A stretch of 15,621 nt of DNA. It comes from a bacterium. GTDB lineage: Bacteria > CSSED10-310 > JAJRTK01. Location of the stretch: positions 1 to 15,621 of the forward strand of contig JAJRTK010000221.1 in NCBI GenBank assembly GCA_024278345.1, given 5' to 3'. This document shows positions 2,353 through 15,250 of the stretch, one piece after another. Position 1 is the first letter of the stretch. Each line of letters starts with the position of its first letter. The translations under genes and the position numbers were made by a program. Under the pieces are notes generated by a model that did not search any database, was not told the DNA's origin, and saw only the letters and a program-made list of their open reading frames with translations.

Positions 2353-3227
2353 GAGACGCCAAATCCTTGATAGGTGGGAAGGCCTGGTCTTCAGGCGACG
2401 GGATCGCGGTCATTCCACTGACGACTCCGACGCTACCACCGGCAACAACGACAAACGCCTTCCTGGTTGGCCGGCGAGATTTTCTGGTGGTGGAACCTGC
2501 ATCGCCCTACGAGGGGGAGCAGGAGCGGCTGTGGGCACTGGTGGCAAAAAGGCTGGCGGGAGGCGGACGTTGCGTGGGCATTGCCGTAACGCACCATCAC
2601 CCGGACCACGTGGGGGGATTGAATCCCCTGCTTAGGCGCCTTTCCGCGCCGCTCATGGCACATGGGAAGACCGCCGAGCTGATCCGGCCCATGAGGCCAG
2701 TGGATCGGTTCCTTGAGGATGGCGATTGGATCGATCTCGAGGGTGAAGCGTGCGTCCGAGTTTTTCACACGCCGGGACACGCCCGTGGGCATTTGTGTTT
2801 TTACCACCCGGAAAGCGGCTCCATGATCGTCGGAGACATGCTCGCTTCGGTGGGGACGATCCTCATCACTCCAGAGGAGGGAAACATGGCGGATTACCTG
2901 GCCTCTCTGGCACGACTGAAAGAGGTGGGCGCCACAAAGTTGCTTCCGGCGCACGGTACGGCGCTATTGGACCCGAAATCCGCGGTGGATGGTACTATTT
3001 CCCATCGTCTTGCCCGGGAGGCGAAGGTTCTCCAGGCCCTGATGAGGCATCCCCACGGCAGGAGCCTCCAGAGCCTTCTGCCCGAGGTCTACGATGACAC
3101 TCCCATCCTCTATCACAAGTGGGCCGCTCTCTCCTTGGAATCGCACCTCATCAAGCTCGTCAAGGACGAGAAAGTCGTGATTCACGGTGAGTCCGGCTAC
3201 CTGTTGTCGGCTCCGGGAAGATCATGA
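2349..3227 (+). CDS. Metallo-beta-lactamase-fold hydrolase, LACTB2-like, with C-terminal winged helix
   Basis: This 292-residue MBL-fold protein starts at GTG 2349, which overlaps the preceding stop; longer in-frame starts would bury it inside the zinc-finger gene. All metal ligands are present: HHHPDH (H82, H84, D86, H87), H144 in TPGH, D163 in VGD and H202 in PAHG, so it should bind two metal ions and be active. Residues about 215-277 match the small helical/winged domain at the end of LACTB2-type enzymes (LAREAKVLQAL, then SLESHLIKLVKDEKV). Relatives include the human endoribonuclease LACTB2 and many bacterial hydrolases of thioesters or phosphoesters, so the substrate cannot be assigned. 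It has no signal peptide and is probably cytoplasmic. Its TGA overlaps the next gene's ATG (ATGA, 3224-3227), making it the middle gene of a tightly coupled operon. Confidence 0.92.
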   Translation: MRDAKSLIGGKAWSSGDGIAVIPLTTPTLPPATTTNAFLVGRRDFLVVEPASPYEGEQERLWALVAKRLAGGGRCVGIAVTHHHPDHVGGLNPLLRRLSAPLMAHGKTAELIRPMRPVDRFLEDGDWIDLEGEACVRVFHTPGHARGHLCFYHPESGSMIVGDMLASVGTILITPEEGNMADYLASLARLKEVGATKLLPAHGTALLDPKSAVDGTISHRLAREAKVLQALMRHPHGRSLQSLLPEVYDDTPILYHKWAALSLESHLIKLVKDEKVVIHGESGYLLSAPGRS

Positions 3228-6200
3228 TGCCTGCCACCCTGTCGCTTGGTCCCCCCTTTGGCCGGACGGTGTCCACGGCAGCTCTTCTCAGTTTGATCCT
3301 CGTCTGTTGCCTGAAACCCTGTCTCGCGCTGGCCACGGAGAACGCAGGTGAAAGCCGAAGTCGCCGGGACGGGACCCTCTTCGAAGTCTCGGCGCTCTGC
3401 GAATCGGGGCAGCGGAGCGAGGCCGTGGACTTGCTCATCGGAACCATTCGGCAGGCTCCCCATGACATGGAAGCCGCGGAACAGCTCTACCAGATCGCCG
3501 GGCAGGACTCTGATCTCTGGCAACGGTTCTCCCCAGCCGAGACATGGCGCACCCTGATGCTGGGACCTGCAGCCCCAGCATGGTGGAGCATCATGGGCCG
3601 CCTCTTGGCCTCGCGAAACCCAGAAGCGGCAAGGTATTGGCTCGCCGGCGCTATTTCGGGGGCGAAGGAGTTCACACCGGCTTCCATCGACGCGTGGATC
3701 CGGCTCCTGTCGAACCCGGAGGAGGAACAACATTGGATCCGGACGATGCGGGACCGGGGGTGTACACCGAAGAACCTGGGCGCAATCTCGGTGAGCCTGG
3801 CCCGGAGAACTGGCAGGCTGGACCTGGCTTTGGACCGGCTCCTGCCGTTAGCCAAGCGGTGGCATGACGATCCGCGCATTCTGATGCAAGAGGCCCAACT
3901 GCTCCTGATCTCAGGCCGCTGTGCCGATGCCGTAGACGCAGCGGAGCGTGCGCTTTTGGAAGCAAAGCGCCAAGATTGGAGGTGGTTGTACCCGGAGATC
4001 TTACGCCTTTACGCCAAGGCTCAAATCTGCCGCGGAAACGAAAAGAAGGCCCGAACTGCCTATCGATCCGCGGTCGAAAGCTCGAAATGGGCCTGTGAGG
4101 CAAATCTCGCCCGGGAGCTCCAGTTGGAGTGGGCGGCTAGCCTTCAAAAACTCGGAAATATGTTTGACGCCGCCGCGGTTCTCAAGGATGCCCTGGATCG
4201 AGGTTCCACCAAGGCGAGCGTGGAGTTAGCAGGACTCCTGGAGAAGACAGGCAGGCTGGAAGAGGCCCTTTTCGCGGCGGAAGAAGCGGAGATTGCGGTG
4301 GAAATGGACGGCGGGGCTGGGGATCTGATGGAGCTCCAGCAGATCCGTGGGAGGCTTTTGGCCAAGAGCGGAAGAACCAAGGAAGCGCTGGGCTCACTGG
4401 GAGCCGCCTTCGGAGTAGCGCGTGAAACCAAAAACTCTGGCGCACAGGCCGAGATCCTCTTGGAGACAGCCACGGTCTGGCTGCGGCTTTCGGTTCCCAA
4501 ACAGGCGGCGGCGATTCTCCGGGCGGCGTTGAAACTGGAGCTTCCAGAGCGAAAAGAAGCCAAGCTACGATGCGGTTTGGCAGAGATCGAGATCTTCCGA
4601 GCCCGCCCCAAGCAGGCTCTTGGTCTGGCGGCAGGCTGCCAGGAGCTTGGACTCGACGTTGGGGATCGGGAGCTCTGGCAACAAGGCGTTCTTCTTGAGG
4701 GCCAGGCCCTGAACCGCCTTGGACGATGGAGGGAAGCCTTCTCGAAACTGGAAGGGGTCGAGACAAGAGGTAAGCTCCAAAAAGCGGAGGGCGCTCGTTG
4801 GCAAACAGAGGTGGAGCTGGCGCGGGGCTGGGCCCTGGCGCATCTCTCCCGCGGCGGCGAAGAAGATCTGGAGTCAGCGGCGAAACGGGCATCGGCCGAA
4901 CTGATGCCCCTCCTAGAGGCCGAGTCCCTCCGGCGCCTGGCCTGGATTCAGCGAACCATGGGAAACCTGGAAGCTGCGCGGCATCGCCTCAAAGAGGCAA
5001 CGAGGCGGGCAAGCCGGGCGGCACTCTTCCCTGAAGAGCGCCCGGGCGCCCTCGATCCTTCCGCGGTGCGCACGGCGGTCTATGAAGAGTATCTGGACCT
5101 CCTGGCCGAACAGGCAGAGAAGGCGGCCAGCGGCTCCCGTCGAGGGAGAAAAGGCCTTCAGGAAGTCCACGAGCTGGGCTGGAGGGTGGCGGATCTTTTG
5201 GCGGGAGAGGCCGTACGCCGTTCTTTTTCCTCTCCCAGGCTCATGACCCCGGGTGCCGCGGCCGAAGCCCTGGATCGCTATCTGGAACAGGCCCGCGAGG
5301 TCGCCCGCGTGGAAGCCTGCCTGGATGCGCCTCACCTGGGTTCGGTCCTGCGTTACCATATCCAGAGGTGGATAAGTTCCAGCGCTTTGCCGGCGAAGAC
5401 GCGGCTGGCCCTTCGGGATAGGGCGCAACTCTCCATCATCGGGAAAGAGCTTCGGGCTTTTTTGGAGGAGCTCCGGGAGCGGCAGTCAAGCCGTTTGGCG
5501 AGGGCTGCCACAGATTTGCGCCATGAGAGGCCGGCCGTTGCTCGGACCCTGGCGCCACCTCCGGCCATGGCCACGGTCCAAAAGGCCTTGGCTTCGAAAG
5601 AAGTTTTGCTCTCGTGGGTCGTCGGGGGAAATCGTCTTTGGATCCTGGGCGCCACAAAGAAACGGACGGCCCTGTCGCGGGTCCAGCTTTCAAGAGGGCT
5701 CGTGGCGGCCTTGCGAGATTACGTGGAGGCCCTGCGCCGTCCTCCGGGGCGAGGAGAGGAGCTTGACCGGAGCAGCGGGCGCCTGGTCTACGAGAAACTT
5801 CTGGCGGACCCTCTTCGAGCCCTGGGATTGGACAAGCCGCCGCGGAGGTTGACCGCGATCCTTGACGGCGAGCTTGCCGAGTTGCCGCTTGGGGCCTTGC
5901 CGGTGGATGAGTCCAGCTTCCTGATCCAGGACACAACGGTCAGCGCGATCCCATCGCTGGCCTGGCTTTCCGTTTCTCCACCTAATCTACGGACCCGCCC
6001 GAAGGCTGTTTTCTTTGGAGCGCCGTTTCTACCGCGGGCGGGAGGGCCGGAAAGTCTTGAGCCGGTGATGCCTGGTCTCCCGGATGGCACCTTCACCTTG
6101 GTCCTCCCTCCAGAGACGGCTGCGGCAAAGCGGCTGCCCTATTCGGCCCTTGAGGTGGAAACGGTCGCGCAGAGATTTGGCGAAGGGGCGACGCTCTACC

Positions 6201-6700
6201 TGGAGGGGAGCGCCTTGGAAAGCGAGGTGTCGGGGTTGGCGGCCCGGAGCGCGTCAATCCTCCACTTTGCGGCTCCTGCCTTCTCGGGCCTAGAGAACTC
6301 GTTTTTGAGCGGGATTTTGTTAAGCCGTGGGGAAGATGATGAAACTGACGGTTTCCTGAGCCAGCGGGAAATCTTGGGGTTGGGGCTAACTGCCGATGTC
6401 ATCGTCCTTAGCGGCAACCGGACGCATAGCGGTTCTCGGGCTCACGACGTCGTGGCGAGCTTCCAACTTTCGGGAAGCAGCGTTGTGCTGACGGGACTTT
6501 GGCCCCACGCCGACCGCTCGGCGGTCTTCCTGCTTGGGCGGTTCCATGGATATTTACCGGAGCTGGGGCCAATAGACTCGCTTCGGCGGGCGCAGCTCGA
6601 CCTCCTGGAAATCCGGCTCCAGGACAAGAAAAAACGGGCACTCCGCAAGTTTCGCCACCCCTACTACTGGTCGGGCTACCGCATCTTCGGGAGACCCTGA
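3224..6700 (+). CDS. Exported TPR protein with a catalytically degenerate CHAT (caspase-like) domain
   Basis: This 1158-residue protein begins with a signal peptide: hydrophobic core about residues 18-36, with probable cleavage after the ALA at 35-37. Cysteines near the end of the core do not form a good lipobox. Residues about 50-720 are Ala/Leu/Glu-rich helical hairpins of TPR type (for example ALFAAEEAEIAVEM, AKSGRTKEALGSLGAAF). Residues about 780-1156 align well with the CHAT protease fold: DGELAELPLGALP, then SILHFAAPAFSGLENSFLSG, DVIVLSGNRTHSG, VVLTGLWPHAD and HPYYWSGYRIFG. CHAT proteases normally read HFATHG and LSACxTG here. The catalytic His is replaced by Pro (P1018) and the catalytic Cys by Asn (N1065), while the scaffold is intact. 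It is therefore predicted to be a pseudo-protease acting as a periplasmic or surface scaffold or sensor. The start overlaps the hydrolase stop (ATGA), and a second ATG follows at 3227. It ends in TGA, converging on the glycosyltransferase gene. Confidence 0.92.
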   Translation: MMPATLSLGPPFGRTVSTAALLSLILVCCLKPCLALATENAGESRSRRDGTLFEVSALCESGQRSEAVDLLIGTIRQAPHDMEAAEQLYQIAGQDSDLWQRFSPAETWRTLMLGPAAPAWWSIMGRLLASRNPEAARYWLAGAISGAKEFTPASIDAWIRLLSNPEEEQHWIRTMRDRGCTPKNLGAISVSLARRTGRLDLALDRLLPLAKRWHDDPRILMQEAQLLLISGRCADAVDAAERALLEAKRQDWRWLYPEILRLYAKAQICRGNEKKARTAYRSAVESSKWACEANLARELQLEWAASLQKLGNMFDAAAVLKDALDRGSTKASVELAGLLEKTGRLEEALFAAEEAEIAVEMDGGAGDLMELQQIRGRLLAKSGRTKEALGSLGAAFGVARETKNSGAQAEILLETATVWLRLSVPKQAAAILRAALKLELPERKEAKLRCGLAEIEIFRARPKQALGLAAGCQELGLDVGDRELWQQGVLLEGQALNRLGRWREAFSKLEGVETRGKLQKAEGARWQTEVELARGWALAHLSRGGEEDLESAAKRASAELMPLLEAESLRRLAWIQRTMGNLEAARHRLKEATRRASRAALFPEERPGALDPSAVRTAVYEEYLDLLAEQAEKAASGSRRGRKGLQEVHELGWRVADLLAGEAVRRSFSSPRLMTPGAAAEALDRYLEQAREVARVEACLDAPHLGSVLRYHIQRWISSSALPAKTRLALRDRAQLSIIGKELRAFLEELRERQSSRLARAATDLRHERPAVARTLAPPPAMATVQKALASKEVLLSWVVGGNRLWILGATKKRTALSRVQLSRGLVAALRDYVEALRRPPGRGEELDRSSGRLVYEKLLADPLRALGLDKPPRRLTAILDGELAELPLGALPVDESSFLIQDTTVSAIPSLAWLSVSPPNLRTRPKAVFFGAPFLPRAGGPESLEPVMPGLPDGTFTLVLPPETAAAKRLPYSALEVETVAQRFGEGATLYLEGSALESEVSGLAARSASILHFAAPAFSGLENSFLSGILLSRGEDDETDGFLSQREILGLGLTADVIVLSGNRTHSGSRAHDVVASFQLSGSSVVLTGLWPHADRSAVFLLGRFHGYLPELGPIDSLRRAQLDLLEIRLQDKKKRALRKFRHPYYWSGYRIFGRP

Positions 6701-6820
6701 GGAATCTTGCGGTGATCTTGGGCGAGCAGCGCGAACGGAGGTGAGTGATGGGAGCGGAAGCCAACTCAAAGAGAAGACAACCGTTCAACCTTGTTTTGGC
6801 TGCCGATGGGTGAGGCTGTG

Positions 6821-7831
6821 TCAAGCTACGAGGACCAGCATTTGGCCGGTTTTCAGGGGATGACATCGGAACCATTCCACGATCCGCCCGCGGCCTCCCT
6901 TCTTGCCTACGGCCGCGAGGAAGACGGTGACATCGAGTTTCGGCAGGTCATCATAGGCCACCACCGGCAGGCCCTGGATCGACTTGCCGATCCGTCTTGG
7001 GTGGAGATCGACGAAGCAACGAACGGCGATTCCACGTTGCGCAAGGAGCCTTGCCCAGGGTTTGGCCGTGGGTCCTGCCCCAAGGATGGCACACCCTTTG
7101 TGGAGAGGCGCAAAGCGTTCCAGGTATTCGAGCTTGCAGTTTCTGAAGGCCTCGGGGGAATACTGCCGTGAGGTCCTGGAAGTTCGATGTGCGGTGTCCC
7201 GCCATTTTAGAAGAGATTCCGGGACTTTCGCCAGGCGGTAACCGGACTCTAGGAGGCGGAGCCAGAGGTCGTAGTCTTCGGGCCATCGCAGTGCCTGGTA
7301 GCCTCCGATGGCGTTGAAAGCTTCGCGGCGAATGAGAACACTGGGGTGGGCCAGCGGGCTTTCGACGAATCTCTGATCGCTCATTTGGTCGTGAGTCACG
7401 AGGGAGTTGAGCCAATTTTCGTAGCGCTCCATGCCCATGGAAAGTGGTTTTGGAAAGATGTCTACCAAGGAGCCAACGACGGCGATTTCCGGATGCTCGG
7501 CCAAGAAATGAAACTGTTTCTCCAGCCGTTCGGGGCAGCAGACATCATCGCCATCCATTCTGGCGAGGAGTGGCGTAGAGGCGATCTCGGCGGCTTGATT
7601 GAGCGCGCTCACGATGCCTTTTCCCCGAGCGGGGTAAAGGTGGAATCGTGCGTCGCGCCGGGCAGTGGACCCGAAGATCGGGGCTGTGTCATCGCTCGAT
7701 CCATCGTCAATGGCAATGACTTCGAAGTCTCGGAAAGTCTGCATGCGCAGGGAGTCGAGGCACTCTTCCAGATAGTGGCCCTCATTTCGTAGCGGCAGGA
7801 GAACACTGATACGAGCAAGGTTCAAGGGCAT
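6821..7831 (-). CDS. Family 2 glycosyltransferase fused to a C-terminal Rossmann-like domain
   Basis: This 336-residue protein starts at ATG 7831, chosen because GGAGG (7843-7839) lies 7 nt upstream; an upstream in-frame start at 7936 would add 35 unlike residues. Residues about 8-230 are a GT-A, family 2 domain: ISVLLPLRNEG, DDGSSDD (42-48) for nucleotide-sugar binding, DGDD (93-96) as the metal-binding DXD, and WPEDYDLWLRL with the acidic ED pair (185-186) near the acceptor site. Residues about 246-336 begin with the dinucleotide-type turn AILGAGPTA and continue with CFVDLHPRRIGKSIQGLPVV, recalling the N-terminal Rossmann domain of PglD-like sugar acyltransferases. There is no membrane helix, so it is probably a cytoplasmic or peripheral enzyme making surface glycan. 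No other glycan genes are adjacent. It is convergent with the TPR/CHAT gene and divergent from the sensor kinase; sugar donor and acceptor are unknown. Confidence 0.92.
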   Translation of the reverse strand: MPLNLARISVLLPLRNEGHYLEECLDSLRMQTFRDFEVIAIDDGSSDDTAPIFGSTARRDARFHLYPARGKGIVSALNQAAEIASTPLLARMDGDDVCCPERLEKQFHFLAEHPEIAVVGSLVDIFPKPLSMGMERYENWLNSLVTHDQMSDQRFVESPLAHPSVLIRREAFNAIGGYQALRWPEDYDLWLRLLESGYRLAKVPESLLKWRDTAHRTSRTSRQYSPEAFRNCKLEYLERFAPLHKGCAILGAGPTAKPWARLLAQRGIAVRCFVDLHPRRIGKSIQGLPVVAYDDLPKLDVTVFLAAVGKKGGRGRIVEWFRCHPLKTGQMLVLVA

Positions 7832-7838
7832 GGGAAAA

Positions 7839-7843
7839 CCTCC
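7839..7843 (-). promoter_or_regulatory. Ribosome binding site fixing the glycosyltransferase start
   Basis: GGAGG on the minus strand, 7 nt before ATG 7831. It supports the shorter start over the in-frame extension to 7936. Confidence 0.8.
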
Positions 7844-7882
7844 GTAATGCGTCTGCCCGGTAGAGAGGCTAAAACGATCCGG

Positions 7883-7911
7883 TTGAAATTGGCGGGGCTC
7901 ATCGATAAGAA
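7883..7911 (+). promoter_or_regulatory. Weak candidate promoter of the sensor kinase gene
   Basis: TTGAAA at 7883-7888 is followed after 17 bases by TAAGAA at 7906-7911 (or after 15 bases by GATAAG at 7904-7909), in the 122-base divergent gap between glycosyltransferase and sensor. The -10 match is poor, so this is only a suggestion. Confidence 0.25.
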
Positions 7912-7953
7912 TGAGGGTGGATTCGAAGGTCTGCAACCGCTTCCGAGGTGAGG

Positions 7954-8754
7954 ATGCCGAAACGTCGCCGTGCGTTCTTCCGGGGCTCGATCCCCTTGTG
8001 CTTCTTTCTGGCCGGGATGGTCTCCTTGCCGGAAGCGGGGTGGTGTGAAGGCGTTGGCGCAGTGCCTGTACAGGGAGGCGACCTTTCCCGGAGCCCGACC
8101 CACAAGGTCAAGCTGCTGGAGGCCCAGCTCATCCAGGCAAGGCGGGCGACACGGCCAGCGCAATGGCGGACCTGGGGACCGGAAACGGGACTTTCTTCAA
8201 CTGAGATCTACGTGCTCCTGGAAACGCCGGACGGAACCCTTTGGGCCGGGGGAAACCAGGGTCTCCACAGGTTCGACGGATTCCGCTGGACTCCGGTACC
8301 CGGTGCTGGCACCTTTTGTTACAGCTTGGCTTACGAAAAATCGACGAAGACCCTGTGGGCCGGTTTCGACGACCAAGTGTACCAACTTCGGGAAGGAAGC
8401 GACTCTCTGAAGCCTTACACTCGGATCGCGGAAGCGGCCATCCCCCGGGCGGCGCTGAGCTTTGACGGAAAGAACCGGCTGTGGGTTATTTCGGAGAAGG
8501 GGATATTCCTTCGTGCAGGCGGGGACGATTGGCGTCAAGTGCCGGTGCGCTCGGTTGAAAACCTGGCCTACGCCACCCCCCTATTGGAATCGGCGCGAGG
8601 CGAGCTGTTGCTGGGCACGGAAGAGGGCCTGCTAGTGGGCACGGCCGCGGATGGATTCGCCCCCTTTCCCGGGGCTCCCACGGTCCAGGTCTTGGCGCTG
8701 GCGGAAGATCCCACTGGCCGGTTGTGGGTTGCCACCGTGGATGGCTTGTTCTAG
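7954..8754 (+). CDS. Reg_prop sensor kinase, N-terminal segment ending at an in-frame TAG
   Basis: ATG 7954 has GAGG at 7945-7948, 5 nt ahead; an in-frame GTG lies at 7948. The first 266 codons encode an exported region: basic start MPKRRR, a hydrophobic core (about 12-24) and probable cleavage near residues 28-33. Beta-propeller repeats of the Reg_prop type follow, recognisable by G-x-LW-x-(G/A) and GL-(H/F) motifs: GTLWAGGNQGLHRFDG, KTLWAGFDDQ, NRLWVISEKGIF, GELLLGTEEGLL and GRLWVATVDGLF. Translation then meets TAG. The next codons in the same frame read REEGKWEKL, exactly the expected end of the blade. This is therefore the first part of the gene continuing to 13212, not a complete protein. 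If translation really stops here, the product is a secreted five-blade propeller fragment that would not close. Confidence 0.85.
   Translation: MPKRRRAFFRGSIPLCFFLAGMVSLPEAGWCEGVGAVPVQGGDLSRSPTHKVKLLEAQLIQARRATRPAQWRTWGPETGLSSTEIYVLLETPDGTLWAGGNQGLHRFDGFRWTPVPGAGTFCYSLAYEKSTKTLWAGFDDQVYQLREGSDSLKPYTRIAEAAIPRAALSFDGKNRLWVISEKGIFLRAGGDDWRQVPVRSVENLAYATPLLESARGELLLGTEEGLLVGTAADGFAPFPGAPTVQVLALAEDPTGRLWVATVDGLF
8752..8754 (+). other. In-frame amber codon interrupting the sensor kinase
   Basis: TAG at codon 267 (counting from ATG 7954) splits blade 5 between DGLF and REEGKW. The frame is unchanged on both sides and open for 1485 further codons. Single-base ancestors could be CAG, GAG, AAG, TGG, TCG, TTG, TAC or TAT. 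A nonsense mutation, a base-call error and stop readthrough are all possible. The next base is C, but no known recoding element is recognised. Confidence 0.9.
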
Positions 8755-11700
8755 CGGGAGGAAGGGAAATGGGAAAAACTCGACGAGACCACCGGCCTGC
8801 CGCGTTCGTATTGTTCGGGGCTCTGCCCCACGGCGCAAGGGATTTGGGTGGGAACTCAGAGCGGGATTTGCGCCATCGAAGGGCAGGCGATCAACTGCTT
8901 CACCAAGAAGGATGGATTGTCGGCCAACGCGGTACGTTCGATCCTCGTGGATAGCCGGGGGCTGGTGTGGATTGGCACCCGTGGCGGTGGCTTGAGCGTC
9001 TTGAACGGTCGGCTGTGGAGACAGTGGTTGGAGGAATTGGGAATCCCCCCTGGCCACATTGTCTTCGGCCACGCCATGGACCCCGATGGGACTCTTTGGT
9101 TCGAAGCTGACACGGGCGGCCTGATCCGGGTGGCTCCGGACGGGACCCACCAGGCCATCCAGGTTGAGGATCTGGGCCGCGCCATTACCCGAGACCATGC
9201 TGGCAGACTCTGGGTGACCCGGTGGCACAAGAACCCCACGTATTTGGAAGATGGTGTCTGGAACGAGATCCCCGGGACGGAGGCGCGGGGAGCAAACTTT
9301 ATGATTCCGGGCTCCAACTCGGGGGAACTGTGGCTTGGAACCAACTGGAACGGACTTTTCCTGTACCGGGACGGCAAATTCCAGCACTGGGGGCCGGATA
9401 AGCTGGGACATGCCTTCGTTCGGCTTCTTTACCTGGACCGGTCCGGGACGCTTTTCGTCTCGACGCTGGACGGTGATCTCTGGACGCTGCCATCAGGATC
9501 CTCTGAACTGATGCCCTGGCTCCGAGCATACCAGTTGCCGAGCACGCGACTTCAGGCGATGCTGGAAACCTCCATGGGGACGCTCTGGATTGCCACGAAC
9601 CGGGGCGTCGCGCGAATGGCCGGGGAGGAGATCGACGTTTTCACGACGAAGGATGGTCTGAGTGACGATGATGTCCGGGCCATCATGCAAGACAGCACTG
9701 GTAAGCTTTGGTTCGGCACAGGGAACGGTGTGACGATTTATGATGGGGAGACGTTTCTTCCTCTTCGGGCGGAAGATGGCGCCCCCGGACATCTCGTCAC
9801 GGGAATCGTCGAGACGCCCAAGGGTGAGATTTGGATGACGGGCTCGGCAGGAATCAGCGCGCTACAACCATCCGCAATGCCGGAATTGGAATTGACCGCA
9901 AGCCTCGTTTCCGGTGAAGGGGATGAGCCTGGTGTCATCACAACGGCGACGGCCGAAATAAAACTCCACGCTCAGACCCGCTGGTGGAGTCATCCCGCCC
10001 GGCTCTTCCGGTTTTCGTGGAAGCTGGACGAAGGTCCGTGGAGCCCCTACATCGCAGGAAATAAGCTCAAGCTGACAGACCTTGGCGAGGGAGCGCACGT
10101 GCTCCAGGTCCGCGCCAAGGATCCTCTTCTCCGCCCATCCAAGATGCCGGGTATCGTCAGGTTCAAGGTCAATCTCCCAACGCCTCGGGAAGTCTATTAT
10201 CTTCTGGCCCTTCTTCTAGTCGTGGCAGCAAGCCTCCTACTCCGGGTCATCCGCAGAAGAAAAGCCTCTTACGTTGGCCCTTACCTGCTCCTCAAACCCC
10301 TTGGCGAAGGTGGGCTGGGGCAAGTGTGGAAGGCCCGGGACATCACGACGGGGGAAGTTGTAGCCCTCAAGGTTCTGCGGCCTGATCTGACAGCCTCGGA
10401 AGAAATGCGCCAGCGGTTTCGACGAGAAGCCGGCCCCGCGATTCAGGTGGAGCACCCGAACATCATTCAGATCCACAACAGAGGTGAGCACCAGGGCCGC
10501 GCCTATCTGAGCATGGAATTCCTGGATGGCTGGACGTTGAGCGAAGAACTTCGGCGAAGGGGCGGCCATCTCCCGGCAGGCGATGTTTTGGAAATTGGCA
10601 TCATCCTTCTCGACGCCTTGGAGTGCCTCCACGAGCACCGGATCCTCCACCTCGATCTCAAGCCGGGCAATGTCATGGTTCTCAAGAGCGGCACCACTTG
10701 GAACGAGAAGATCCGCCTCATGGATTTCGGATTGGCGGAGATCATGTCCGAACGGGAAGGAACCGCGCCTCCAGCGTTTGGAGGAACGCTTTACTACATG
10801 TCTCCGGAGCAGGCGCTAGGCCGATCGCTCGATCCCCGAGCCGATCTTTTTTCGGTGGGCGCGATTCTCTTCGAGCTGGCTTCCGGGCAGCGGGCATTCG
10901 CGGGGAAGCATGATCTCGCGGTCCTCCAGGATATGATGAGCGGTGAACCTCCGTCGCTGAGGGAGCATCTTCCTGATGCTCCGAAACAGTTTGACGCGGC
11001 CCTGAGCGCAGCGCTGTCGCCAACGGCGACGGCACGGTATTCAACGGCCTCTGCCTTCAAGGCCGTTCTGGAAGAAATCCGTGCAAATCCGAAGACCGAC
11101 TTCGATTCCTCGCCAGCCGCTATCGAACAGCCGCTGGAGCGAGCGCCCGTGGGGAATGAAGAGCTTTGGACCACCTCTTTAATGTCCACGGCCAGTGCTT
11201 CGGACCTCCGCCAGCGGCTCTCGATACTCTACGAGCTCATCGACGCGCTGCTCAGCCCTGACTTGGACGAGTTGCTGGAGCGTCTCCTGGACAGGATCCT
11301 TCACATGATGGACGCACAACGGGGCATGATCTTCCTTTTGGACCCCACCGAAGGCGTGGAAATGCGTGTTGCCCGCGGCGGGCAGATCTCTTACAGCCAT
11401 TCCGTGGTGGAAAAGGTGCTGCGGACGGGGGCTCCCCAGTATCTTGTCAACGTGCAGGATGATGAAAACTCTTCCCCCAGCATCTTGGCCGACCAGCTTT
11501 TGGCAGTCCTCTGCGTGCCGTTTCTGCGCGGTGAAGAAGTCATCGGCGCCCTCTATTTAGACTCGTCCACTTCAGTCCTGGGTTCTCATTTCTCCATCGA
11601 AGAAGGGCACCTTCTCACTTCCCTGGCCGGGCTTGCGGCGGCGGCTATCGCCAACGCCCGGGAGCTCCGGGCCCGCCGCGAGGCTGAGGCGGCAGTCGCG

Positions 11701-13212
11701 GAGCTCAAGAACTACCTCCAGGACATTCTGGAATCGATGCCTTCGATGCTGATCGCCGTCGATTCGGCAGGCCAGATCCGCTCCCTGAATCCCGCGGCGT
11801 GCAAGCAGTTTTCCCTGGATTCCGAAAGCGCCTTGGGGGCTTCCTTTTGGGAAGCCTGCCCCTCGTTGGCTGCCTACCGTGAGACCTTCACCGAGCTTGA
11901 GAGAACGCGCTCCAGCCTTGAGATCCCCGAGCGCCTGTCCGGCGACAAGCCGGATGAATTCTGGTCCTTGAGCTTTTTTCCCCTGAGCGCCAGTAGATCG
12001 GGTGGCATGGTCATCCGGATTGATGATGTCACCACCACTCACAAACTCAAGGAACAACTCCAGCAATCGCAAAAGATGGAAACCGTGGGAACCCTCGCTG
12101 GCGGGATCGCCCATGATTTCAATAATTTGTTAGCAGGAATGCTGGGCACCCTCTCGATCCTTGACTGGCAGATGCAGTCGGGCATGGAGATCAAGAGCAC
12201 GGAATTCAAGTCTCAGATCGATGTCGTCCGAGATTGTGCTCTCCGGGCGACGGAGATTGTTCGGCAGCTCCTGAGCCTTTCCAGGAAAACAGATCTCCAC
12301 CTCACCACCGTCGATCTGCAGAAACTGTTGGGCGACGTCATCAAAATATGTTCTTCATCTTTTCCGCCAAATGTGGAGATCGAAACAGTTTCCGAAGAGC
12401 GAGATATCCTGGTGACGGCTGATCCCATGCAGATCAAGCGCATTCTTCTGAACCTTGCCGTCAATGCCAGGGATGCCATGCCCGATGGCGGTCGCCTGAG
12501 CTTCGTGTTGGAGAAGATCGAGGCGTCGCGCTGCCAAGAAGTGGATATGGCGGCGGCGAAAAGCGATTACATTCGCATCGACATCAAGGATACTGGAACC
12601 GGTATCGCTCCGGAGAATATTTCGAGGATTTTCGATCCCTTCTTTACGACGAAACCGGTGGGGAAAGGGACCGGCCTCGGGCTCGCCATGGTCTATGGGA
12701 TCGTCACGCAACACAATGGCTTCATCAAGGTCGATAGCCAGGCGAATCAGGGAACGACCTTCCGGATCCACATGCCTGCGGCCACCGAGGACCTCCGCGT
12801 GACATCGATCCCCGTCTCCGCCCTTCCAAAAGGCACGGAGACCATTCTGGTCATCGATGATGAAAGGGTCGTCCAGCAACTGGTTCAGGGGATGCTCAAG
12901 GTCTTGGGATACACTGTTTTCGTCGTCAGCGATGGTGAGAGCGGCCTCGAATTCATCCAGACGAGCAGGCAGCCCATCGACCTCGTGTTGCTCGACCTTA
13001 TCATGCCGGGCCTCAGCGGCCGGGAGACCCTGACCGAGATCCGAAAGATCAACACTTCCCTGCCAGTGATCGTCTCTTCAGGGGTCCAGCTCGACACCCA
13101 GGCCCACGGGATCCCGGTCGATTTGGTCTCCTCCCTCCTGGCCAAGCCCTTCGAGCTCGCGGATCTGGCCATGGCGGTTCGCTACGCTCTCGATGAACCA
13201 CGCATTCTCTAG
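8755..13212 (+). CDS. Sensor kinase continuation: propellers, Y_Y_Y, TM, Ser/Thr kinase, GAF, PAS, histidine kinase, receiver
   Basis: Same frame as the 7954 segment; residues are numbered from that ATG. Nine more complete blades bring the total to 14, two seven-bladed propellers. A Y_Y_Y domain (about 684-741) and one membrane helix (747-766) follow. The Hanks-type Ser/Thr kinase (773-1043) has the glycine loop GEGGLGQV, K806 in VALKVL, HLDLKPGN with catalytic D901, DFG 924-926 and SPE 950-952; the Arg of HRD is Leu. Then come GAF (about 1088-1238), PAS (about 1254-1363), HisKA with H1387 (GGIAHDFNN), HATPase (N1504, DTGTGI, GKGTGLGLA) and a receiver (DD 1635-1636, phospho-acceptor D1681, K1731). 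All catalytic residues of both kinases are present. No DNA-binding domain is present. The first plausible restart is GTG 8848 (AAGGGA nearby), which would lack the signal peptide. TAG at 13210 is a natural end after the receiver. Propeller plus Y_Y_Y resembles Bacteroidetes hybrid sensors for polysaccharides; the ligand here is unknown. Confidence 0.9.
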   Translation, partial: REEGKWEKLDETTGLPRSYCSGLCPTAQGIWVGTQSGICAIEGQAINCFTKKDGLSANAVRSILVDSRGLVWIGTRGGGLSVLNGRLWRQWLEELGIPPGHIVFGHAMDPDGTLWFEADTGGLIRVAPDGTHQAIQVEDLGRAITRDHAGRLWVTRWHKNPTYLEDGVWNEIPGTEARGANFMIPGSNSGELWLGTNWNGLFLYRDGKFQHWGPDKLGHAFVRLLYLDRSGTLFVSTLDGDLWTLPSGSSELMPWLRAYQLPSTRLQAMLETSMGTLWIATNRGVARMAGEEIDVFTTKDGLSDDDVRAIMQDSTGKLWFGTGNGVTIYDGETFLPLRAEDGAPGHLVTGIVETPKGEIWMTGSAGISALQPSAMPELELTASLVSGEGDEPGVITTATAEIKLHAQTRWWSHPARLFRFSWKLDEGPWSPYIAGNKLKLTDLGEGAHVLQVRAKDPLLRPSKMPGIVRFKVNLPTPREVYYLLALLLVVAASLLLRVIRRRKASYVGPYLLLKPLGEGGLGQVWKARDITTGEVVALKVLRPDLTASEEMRQRFRREAGPAIQVEHPNIIQIHNRGEHQGRAYLSMEFLDGWTLSEELRRRGGHLPAGDVLEIGIILLDALECLHEHRILHLDLKPGNVMVLKSGTTWNEKIRLMDFGLAEIMSEREGTAPPAFGGTLYYMSPEQALGRSLDPRADLFSVGAILFELASGQRAFAGKHDLAVLQDMMSGEPPSLREHLPDAPKQFDAALSAALSPTATARYSTASAFKAVLEEIRANPKTDFDSSPAAIEQPLERAPVGNEELWTTSLMSTASASDLRQRLSILYELIDALLSPDLDELLERLLDRILHMMDAQRGMIFLLDPTEGVEMRVARGGQISYSHSVVEKVLRTGAPQYLVNVQDDENSSPSILADQLLAVLCVPFLRGEEVIGALYLDSSTSVLGSHFSIEEGHLLTSLAGLAAAAIANARELRARREAEAAVAELKNYLQDILESMPSMLIAVDSAGQIRSLNPAACKQFSLDSESALGASFWEACPSLAAYRETFTELERTRSSLEIPERLSGDKPDEFWSLSFFPLSASRSGGMVIRIDDVTTTHKLKEQLQQSQKMETVGTLAGGIAHDFNNLLAGMLGTLSILDWQMQSGMEIKSTEFKSQIDVVRDCALRATEIVRQLLSLSRKTDLHLTTVDLQKLLGDVIKICSSSFPPNVEIETVSEERDILVTADPMQIKRILLNLAVNARDAMPDGGRLSFVLEKIEASRCQEVDMAAAKSDYIRIDIKDTGTGIAPENISRIFDPFFTTKPVGKGTGLGLAMVYGIVTQHNGFIKVDSQANQGTTFRIHMPAATEDLRVTSIPVSALPKGTETILVIDDERVVQQLVQGMLKVLGYTVFVVSDGESGLEFIQTSRQPIDLVLLDLIMPGLSGRETLTEIRKINTSLPVIVSSGVQLDTQAHGIPVDLVSSLLAKPFELADLAMAVRYALDEPRIL

Positions 13213-13294: not shown

Positions 13295-14830
13295 ATGTCC
13301 CAAAAGAGCAATGTGGCGCCGCGCCCCATGACCCTCACCGAAAAGATCCTTCTTGCCCACGCCATAGGCTGGGATCGGCCAGATCTCCGGCCTGGCGACG
13401 AAATACGGATCGCCGTTGATTGGACAATTGCCTCGGAGCTGGCCTGGAACGGTATGAACCTGACCTACGAGGCGCTCGGGCGGCCTCAGCTTCACGATAG
13501 GGGAAAATTCTACCTGGCCATCGATCACACCGTCGATCCCATCACTCTGGCCAACGATGCCAGAACCCAACGGCTCGTAGGTCTTTCACAAAGCTTCGCC
13601 AAAGAAGCGGGACTGCGCCACTTTTACGATTCTAACCAGACGATCCTCCACACCAAATTCTACCGCGATCTGATTCGGCCCGGCGAAATCGTCCTCGGCG
13701 CCGATTCTCACACATCGTCCCACGGCGGGTTGGGGGCATTTGCCATGGGACTCGGCGGCGCGGATATCACCGTTGCCATGGTCACGGGAGCCTCCTGGAT
13801 CAAGGTTCCTGAAGCGATTCGCGTCCACTTCGCCGGAAAACTTCCCTTCGGTTTGACGGGAAAAGATGCCATCCTCAAGACTCTGGGAGAGTTAGGCAGA
13901 AATACCGTGGCCATGGAACGTACCGTGGAGTACACAGGCGACAATCTAGCGCAGTTTTCCGCCGACTTCCGGTTCACAGTCGCCAACATGACCGCCGAAT
14001 TCGGCGGTCTCAATGGTATCTTCCCCGCCGACGCTATCGCCCGTGCCTACTGTGATGCCCGGAGCGAAAGGGAATTCCGCGGTGGCCGTTTTTTTCGCGC
14101 CGATGAAGGGGCGGACTACAAGGCGACGTTCCATATCGACCTGGACGGCCTCCCGCCGCAAGTGGCCAAGCCTTTCTCGCCGGACAATGTCTTCCCCGTA
14201 AGTGAAGTCCTGGGCCACCCACTGGACGGGGCCTTCATCGGAGCTTGCACCACCACCCAGGAGGAGCTGCTCCTTGCGGGGCTGCTCCTGGAAGCAGCGC
14301 TCAAAGAGAAAACTCCCACGAAAAAGGGCACCAGGCTTGTCGTTCCCGGTTCTCTGGAAATCGTAGGCAACCTCCGGGAGGCCGGAATCATGGAAATCTA
14401 TGAAAAAGCCGGATTCCGCGTGGGAGTTCCAGGATGCTCCATGTGCCTTGGCATTGCATCGGACAAGGCCCGACCCGGGGAAGTATGGCTTTCGAGCCAA
14501 AACCGAAACTTCGAAAACCGCATGGGCAAGGGATCGCTTGCCTGGCTCGCCTCGGCTGCCACCGTTGCGGCATCCACTGTGGAAATGCGAATCGCCGATC
14601 CACGGCCACTCTTGGAAAAGCTCGACAAAGACCGCTTGGCTCGGTTAGTCGGGAACCCTACTGGGGCATGCACCGGACCGATTGAGGTTTCCATTCCGAC
14701 GCCACTGTCAGGCGCAAGCACCGCTGAAAAGCCGAAGTCCACGGAGCGAAAGAAAACCAACACCACCATTCGCGGACGCGTTCAGGTTTTCGGAAACAAT
14801 GTCGATACGGATGCCATCATTCCGGGCTAA
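13295..14830 (+). CDS. Aconitase/3-isopropylmalate dehydratase-family hydro-lyase, LeuC-type part, ending at an in-frame TAA
   Basis: This is the catalytic part of a [4Fe-4S] hydro-lyase that interconverts hydroxy-acid isomers by dehydration and rehydration. The three cluster cysteines are present: C318 (IGACTTTQEE) and C381 and C384 (PGCSMCLG). Other family blocks are LGADSHTSSHGGLGAFAMG and TGKDAILKTLGELG. The chain then passes through a polar linker (about 470-493) into the first swivel-domain strand, VQVFGNNVDTDAIIPG, and stops at TAA, codon 512. GAGGAG lies at 13286-13291, only 3 nt before ATG 13295; the next in-frame ATG (residue 12) has no ribosome site. Single-chain LeuC-LeuD fusions are known. 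The fragment alone lacks the substrate-binding swivel and should be inactive. Isopropylmalate, homoaconitate, citrate or methylcitrate-like substrates are all possible; no leucine genes adjoin. It starts 82 bases after the sensor gene. Confidence 0.9.
   Translation: MSQKSNVAPRPMTLTEKILLAHAIGWDRPDLRPGDEIRIAVDWTIASELAWNGMNLTYEALGRPQLHDRGKFYLAIDHTVDPITLANDARTQRLVGLSQSFAKEAGLRHFYDSNQTILHTKFYRDLIRPGEIVLGADSHTSSHGGLGAFAMGLGGADITVAMVTGASWIKVPEAIRVHFAGKLPFGLTGKDAILKTLGELGRNTVAMERTVEYTGDNLAQFSADFRFTVANMTAEFGGLNGIFPADAIARAYCDARSEREFRGGRFFRADEGADYKATFHIDLDGLPPQVAKPFSPDNVFPVSEVLGHPLDGAFIGACTTTQEELLLAGLLLEAALKEKTPTKKGTRLVVPGSLEIVGNLREAGIMEIYEKAGFRVGVPGCSMCLGIASDKARPGEVWLSSQNRNFENRMGKGSLAWLASAATVAASTVEMRIADPRPLLEKLDKDRLARLVGNPTGACTGPIEVSIPTPLSGASTAEKPKSTERKKTNTTIRGRVQVFGNNVDTDAIIPG
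14828..14830 (+). other. In-frame ochre codon splitting the hydro-lyase swivel domain
   Basis: TAA stands between DTDAIIPG and FCHLSNLETIGQKAF in an unbroken frame. In related fused enzymes I recall Glu at this place (IIPGEFCHL), which would need only GAA to TAA, one G-to-T change. The downstream frame stays open and well conserved for 139 codons. This is a nonsense mutation or sequence error, or less likely readthrough. Confidence 0.88.
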
Positions 14831-15250
14831 TTCTGCCATCTGTCGAATCTGGAAACTATCGGCCAAAAGGCCTTCCATCATGCGCGCCCCGAGTTTATCC
14901 AGCGCGTCCAGGAGGGCGCGAACATCATCGTCGCCGGCAAGGGTTGGGGCACCGGATCATCCCGGGAGCATGCGGCTTGGGCCCTCAAAGGCGCAGGCAT
15001 CCGCCTGGTGATCGCTCGCTCCTTCGCCTTCATCCACGTCCGAAACCTGGTGAACGAATCCATCCCATTCCTGCAAGTGGATGGCAATAGACTCTACGAC
15101 GCGGTCACCGAAGGCTGTGAGATCACGGCCGACCTGGAAACAGGGCATATCCGGATCACTGGCGTGGAAGAAGAATTCCAGGGCAACCCACCACAAGGAG
15201 TCTCTTGGGCAATACAGCAAGCGGGTGGACTCGTGGCTTCCCTGCCCTGA
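14831..15250 (+). CDS. LeuD-type swivel domain, in-frame continuation after the TAA
   Basis: The 139 codons after the TAA complete the swivel domain of the upstream hydro-lyase, ending in TGA. They contain the substrate-binding block VAGKGWGTGSSREHA and the following ALKGAGIRLVIARSFAFIHVRNLVNE, both typical of LeuD and the aconitase C-terminal domain. No in-frame ATG or ribosome site lies near the beginning, and the first strands of the domain belong to the upstream ORF. It is therefore not an independent leuD gene but the severed end of a single-chain enzyme of about 651 residues. An in-frame GTG at 15008 exists but would delete the active-site motif. If the TAA is a base-call error or is read through, the enzyme is complete and probably functional. 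Confidence 0.85.
   Translation, partial: FCHLSNLETIGQKAFHHARPEFIQRVQEGANIIVAGKGWGTGSSREHAAWALKGAGIRLVIARSFAFIHVRNLVNESIPFLQVDGNRLYDAVTEGCEITADLETGHIRITGVEEEFQGNPPQGVSWAIQQAGGLVASLP

Follow-up and report, generated by a model that had tools for sequence, protein, structure and literature searches.

A predicted double-propeller receptor carrying a Ser/Thr kinase and a hybrid histidine kinase in one TAG-interrupted bacterial reading frame

Sensors composed of Reg_prop propellers and a Y_Y_Y domain are a major bacterial means of sensing polymers outside the cell, and their usual described outputs are histidine kinases or cyclases; gut bacteria use twin-propeller sensors for sugars. The cyanobacterial dual protein kinases (cbSTKIII, HstK Alr2258) contain an N-terminal Ser/Thr kinase, a GAF domain, sometimes a PAS domain and a C-terminal histidine kinase, and such enzymes are also reported from Leptospira, Ralstonia, Pseudomonas and Rhodopseudomonas (PMC2176072, PMC1262709). 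PknD (Mbk) of Mycobacterium tuberculosis possesses an extracellular propeller linked via one helix to a Ser/Thr kinase (PMC1262709).

The sensor gene described here lies in a window of 15,621 nt (the whole stretch of DNA analysed), which is the entire contig C145 of a draft genome of 6.06 Mb (550 contigs, 88% complete). The gene comprises 1752 codons and is open except for a single in-frame TAG at codon 267, at which the product would stop under the standard code (residue 266, in the first propeller). Domains were called by Pfam on the read-through translation with a placeholder residue at the TAG, the named matches being above the cut-off, and the features are as follows.

7954..13212, + strand: sensor gene, TAG-terminated, read through one internal TAG (reading-frame analysis)
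7954..8046, + strand: signal-peptide-like N-terminus, hydrophobic residues 7-25 (hydropathy)
8149..9012, + strand: first seven-bladed propeller, approximate bounds (blade motifs; single propellers fit model residues 36-323)
8752..8754, + strand: in-frame TAG, codon 267, within blade 5 (reading-frame analysis)
9007..9873, + strand: second seven-bladed propeller, approximate bounds (blade motifs; structure alignment; Reg_prop match)
9874..10179, + strand: Y_Y_Y-like domain, degenerate, without Pfam match (alignment with the L052 class; phmmer match of L181; BT4663 fold to model residue 712)
10195..10251, + strand: membrane helix, residues 748-766 (hydropathy)
10288..10944, + strand: Hanks-type Ser/Thr kinase with K806, E825, D901 (HLD) and D924 (Pfam, alignment, residue check)
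11260..11652, + strand: GAF domain (Pfam)
11728..12042, + strand: PAS domain (Pfam)
12088..12291, + strand: HisKA, phospho-acceptor H1387 (Pfam, residue check)
12421..12783, + strand: HATPase_c (Pfam, residue check)
12844..13179, + strand: receiver domain, phospho-acceptor D1681 (Pfam, residue check)

With a probability of roughly 60%, the gene encodes a single-pass receptor with a double propeller of the hybrid two-component (HTCS) type and a Y_Y_Y-like stalk outside the cell and a dual kinase and receiver inside, working by the mechanism proposed below. The domain order given by the first-pass annotation, from signal peptide to receiver with the TAG read through, is borne out by Pfam, hydropathy and the fold model. 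Pfam matched Reg_prop (E 2.7e-34), Pkinase (residues 779-997, E 5e-40), GAF_2 (1103-1233), PAS_4 (1259-1363), HisKA (1379-1446), HATPase_c (1490-1610) and Response_reg (1631-1742), after which the chain stops. Hydropathy placed a signal-like segment at residues 7-25 and one helix at 748-766, just ahead of the kinase, while a third hydrophobic stretch falls inside the GAF domain. The linker from kinase to GAF domain is about 100 residues long and contains no AAA domain.

In the outer half, 14 blade motifs were counted between residues 94 and 624 at a spacing of 38-44, and the AlphaFold2 model (residues 31-760; mean pLDDT 78.8), built from an alignment of 22 related propellers, contains two seven-bladed propellers, both in agreement with the 14 blades (2 x 7) first annotated. 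The Bacteroides sensors BT4663 (4a2l, E 3e-32), BT3049 (3v9f) and BT4673 (3ott) were found by sequence search against solved structures, and the same three ranked first when the model was searched with Foldseek (E 9e-35). The VIA-align match to the periplasmic domain of BT4663 (Z 31.4, 663 residues) spans model residues 37-712 and thus includes the stalk, while single seven-bladed propellers align separately to residues 36-323 and 322-610. BT3049 is likewise matched over its full length. The overall rmsd of 7-8 Å probably reflects uncertain relative placement of the two propellers. The model supports an outer part consisting of two seven-bladed propellers and a Y_Y_Y domain. As to the latter, the first-pass call stands only in a weakened form: Pfam gave no Y_Y_Y match in the sensor, even at E 1, but the region aligns with the Y_Y_Y domain of other propeller-kinase proteins and is matched by L181, a protein of the same phylum (phmmer, E 2e-9), and is therefore called Y_Y_Y-like, in a degenerate form consistent with the fold.

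The in-frame stop makes the activity of the sequenced copy, truncated by the TAG in the consensus, uncertain, and this copy may be either a recent pseudogene or the product of a consensus error. As a recent pseudogene, it would preserve a once-functional layout whose product is now cut short by the TAG inside the first propeller, with no signal peptide on any downstream restart; this is a serious contender, though held at somewhat less than even odds. The lone TAG in an otherwise open frame of 1752 codons agrees with it, as does a second gene with an internal stop on the same contig. Against it, no further stop or frameshift occurs in 5.2 kb, the codon make-up is even on both sides of the TAG, all catalytic residues are retained, and a draft metagenome consensus can contain such errors. 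The second gene (13295-15248, + strand) is of the aconitase/isopropylmalate-isomerase family, with large and small parts fused, and has an internal in-frame TAA at 14828-14830, downstream of which it stays in frame and still matches the isomerase small subunit. Decay and consensus errors would each account for two nonsense codons on a single contig. In a codon-usage scan of 267 kb, the TAG of the sensor was among ten flagged sites.

In the inner half, the Ser/Thr kinase retains the glycine loop, K806, E825, D901 and DFG (D924), and the histidine kinase retains H1387, the N box and both G boxes, so the first annotation of intact key residues in both kinases proved correct, with the qualification that the Ser/Thr kinase is "non-RD", HLD replacing HRD. 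The receiver retains D1635, D1681, S1708 and K1731. The Ser/Thr kinase might nevertheless be a mere spacer or pseudo-enzyme in a protein acting as an ordinary propeller hybrid histidine kinase, as the leucine in place of the HRD arginine and the long branch of this kinase in the tree described below would suggest; with the lysine, glutamate, catalytic aspartate and DFG all retained, and given that non-RD kinases can be active, this is judged unlikely.

Propeller-to-kinase proteins were sought with a junction query over 386 genomes, a thin sample across very many phyla, which returned one spanning protein, L052 in genome G222 (4984-8379, 1131 aa), containing Reg_prop, Y_Y_Y, a helix and Pkinase. 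Within the phylum of G222 (40 genomes), at least 8 genomes retain the junction, with identities of 44-55% and domains checked. When the same 386 genomes were searched with the junction profile A1, G222 and the window alone gave full-length matches. Applied to a large third phylum (396 genomes), the profile brought up nine additional spanning proteins from eight genomes and three families, mostly encoded by ORFs of 1069-1229 aa (Pfam was run on two). The proteins with the order propeller, Y_Y_Y, helix and kinase (L052, L079, L081-L085, L211-L217, L222 and L223) have the kinase at the C-terminus and come from two phyla beyond that of the window; they and the window share this order without insertion, the matches covering profile positions 10-378. 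In the window's own phylum (8 genomes), L181 (G003:C159, 2481-7802) contains a propeller, a window-type Y_Y_Y, AAA_16 and a C-terminal Pkinase. These spanning proteins in other phyla, together with L181, argue that the coupling of a double propeller to a Ser/Thr kinase is a receptor design that recurs, predicted in at least three phyla, and no artefact or assembly oddity. The first-pass annotation held that propeller/Y_Y_Y sensors normally lead directly to a histidine kinase, a contrast that this recurrence corrects; it would also have given up its reading had the propeller-kinase join occurred in this assembly alone, which is not so, spanning proteins being present in other genomes.

Elsewhere, a peptide-pattern scan of genome contigs found only one Bacteroidota propeller protein, and in plasmid records the outputs found with propellers are histidine kinases, diguanylate cyclases or enzymes of the adenylate cyclase type; among the best plasmid matches, none combined a propeller with a Ser/Thr kinase in one place, and no record covers 80% of the query. 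Searches of three further phyla concern tiny phyla and carry little weight. The literature, searched narrowly with wording that may miss some papers, yielded no account of Reg_prop/Y_Y_Y receptors that carry a Ser/Thr kinase. Two gene pairs in G003 should be mentioned separately. In L185 (G003:C94), the end of a propeller histidine kinase gene (3996-8090) runs into the first part of a Ser/Thr kinase-AAA-TPR gene (8038-11499), an unfused pairing of the same parts. The pair in G003:C178 was considered as a broken propeller-kinase gene and rejected, as Pfam and the intervening stops identify two separate genes.

The propeller kinases lie close to L181 and the window in a tree built from 98 kinase domains, where the window occupies a long branch. 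A single clade of all 17 propeller kinases was rejected (AU p 0.005), while a clade of the 17 plus L086, which has a CHASE2-like sensor, was not rejected (AU p 0.14), this group having been picked after the tree was seen.

The full three-part combination was found in the window only. A deep search of the window's phylum (8 genomes) with the two-kinase half gave no match across kinase and histidine kinase; a kinase-to-PAS query over 386 genomes, with three candidates scored per genome, hit only the window at E <= 1e-42; and among 230 loci examined, kinase and histidine kinase share one frame only in the window's own. No three-part protein was present among the best plasmid matches, and narrow literature searches, some wording of which may miss papers, gave no description of one. 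Search depth is uneven, most big phyla being represented by few genomes, and "unique" here means unique in the sequences searched. The early concern about a find confined to this assembly is answered for the propeller-kinase join, which occurs elsewhere, but is borne out for the whole protein, which these searches turned up a single time.

Misassembly could have fused a propeller gene with one for a dual kinase, since the draft genome is split into 550 contigs and the full combination is found only in it. However, frame and composition are continuous through both joins (GC3 is even over the gene, 0.64-0.81), no repeats were found at the joins, similarly spaced propeller-kinase joins exist in other phyla, and G003 joins a window-type Y_Y_Y to an AAA-kinase half, which together make such a chimera very improbable.

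Reading of the TAG as an amino acid, by recoding or programmed readthrough, is the least credible explanation and is rejected: although the frame is undamaged downstream, in 454 kb of the source genome 113 long ORFs out of 238 stop at TAG or TAA, in-frame stops flagged there (under a strict threshold which left the window's own TAG unflagged) occur no more often than in the relative G003, and the sensor gene itself terminates with TAG. As many genes of the source genome stop at TAG or TAA, the internal TAG of the sensor is, from the sequence, a lone nonsense codon and not a recoded one.

The neighbours of the sensor gene are a glycosyltransferase, a CHAT/TPR protein and the aconitase-family enzyme, and no partner regulator, substrate or dedicated target gene adjoins it among the genes of the window. 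Promoter and terminator scans gave matches at chance level only. The gene at 3224-6700 (+ strand) encodes the TPR-CHAT protein (CHAT E 3.5e-35), whose N-terminus looks signal-like by eye, and a metallo-beta-lactamase-fold gene lies upstream. The sole other Reg_prop protein found in the source genome is L053 (G000:C3, 3742-7917; 1391 aa), whose C-terminal part appears fibronectin-like by eye and whose gene is adjacent to a Ser/Thr kinase gene.

For the single-pass receptor reading, the following mechanism is proposed, in which we infer the ligand, the dimerisation, both kinase activities and their coupling. On the model of the BT4663 family, the propellers would bind, as a dimer, a ligand which is perhaps a glycan or other polymer fragment, the Y_Y_Y stalks would shift, and the change would cross the helix into the directly adjoining Ser/Thr kinase; a ligand bound by the propeller dimer of BT4663 (structures 4a2l/4a2m) reportedly shifts the stalks and membrane helices. 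As in the simpler propeller-kinase class, the Ser/Thr kinase is the first domain inside the membrane. The histidine kinase, for which the GAF and PAS domains could sense intracellular cues, would autophosphorylate and pass the phosphate to its own receiver and then to a partner, while the Ser/Thr kinase may either signal separately or tune the histidine kinase in cis. A bolder version, in which a working receptor answers a single external signal with Ser/Thr as well as His-Asp phosphorylation (as the first-pass annotation suggested it could), the Ser/Thr kinase controls the fused histidine kinase in cis, and the protein is the most complex representative of a so far undescribed class of propeller-Ser/Thr-kinase receptors across several phyla, is offered tentatively and considered rather doubtful. 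The recurring type, in which the same propeller sensor would feed a Ser/Thr kinase, gives such kinases defined, testable ectodomains, and the window sensor, with both chemistries behind one sensor, would be a natural test of Ser/Thr and His-Asp gating by one input.

Compared with known systems, the window sensor shares with the Bacteroides HTCS (BT4663, BT3049 and BT4673) two seven-bladed Reg_prop propellers, a putative Y_Y_Y-like stalk, one helix, a histidine kinase and a receiver, the fold of its outer part matching theirs end to end. Unlike them, it has a Ser/Thr kinase, GAF and PAS domains between helix and histidine kinase, its Y_Y_Y is degenerate, and it lacks the C-terminal AraC-type DNA-binding domain of classical HTCS members. 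Its inner half resembles the dual protein kinases in carrying a Ser/Thr kinase, GAF (and PAS) and a histidine kinase in one chain, in the order kinase-GAF-PAS-histidine kinase; the kinase is however not N-terminal in the whole chain, as a signal peptide, a double propeller and a membrane helix are added ahead of it, with a receiver added at the end. PknD likewise has an extracellular propeller, one helix and a Ser/Thr kinase, but its single NHL-repeat propeller is C-terminal, its kinase is N-terminal, and it has no histidine kinase. The L052-type receptors agree in the outer part, the helix and the kinase immediately behind it, but end after the kinase and have a canonical Y_Y_Y in those tested, whereas the window sensor continues. 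Since the propeller/Y_Y_Y-Ser/Thr-kinase type recurs, only the addition of a GAF-PAS-histidine kinase-receiver tail to this predicted layout is new, such a tail after a Ser/Thr kinase being familiar from the dual kinases (PMC2176072, PMC1262709), and the window sensor is best called, on its predicted domains, an HTCS-type sensor on a dual-kinase output, both halves of which have known counterparts.
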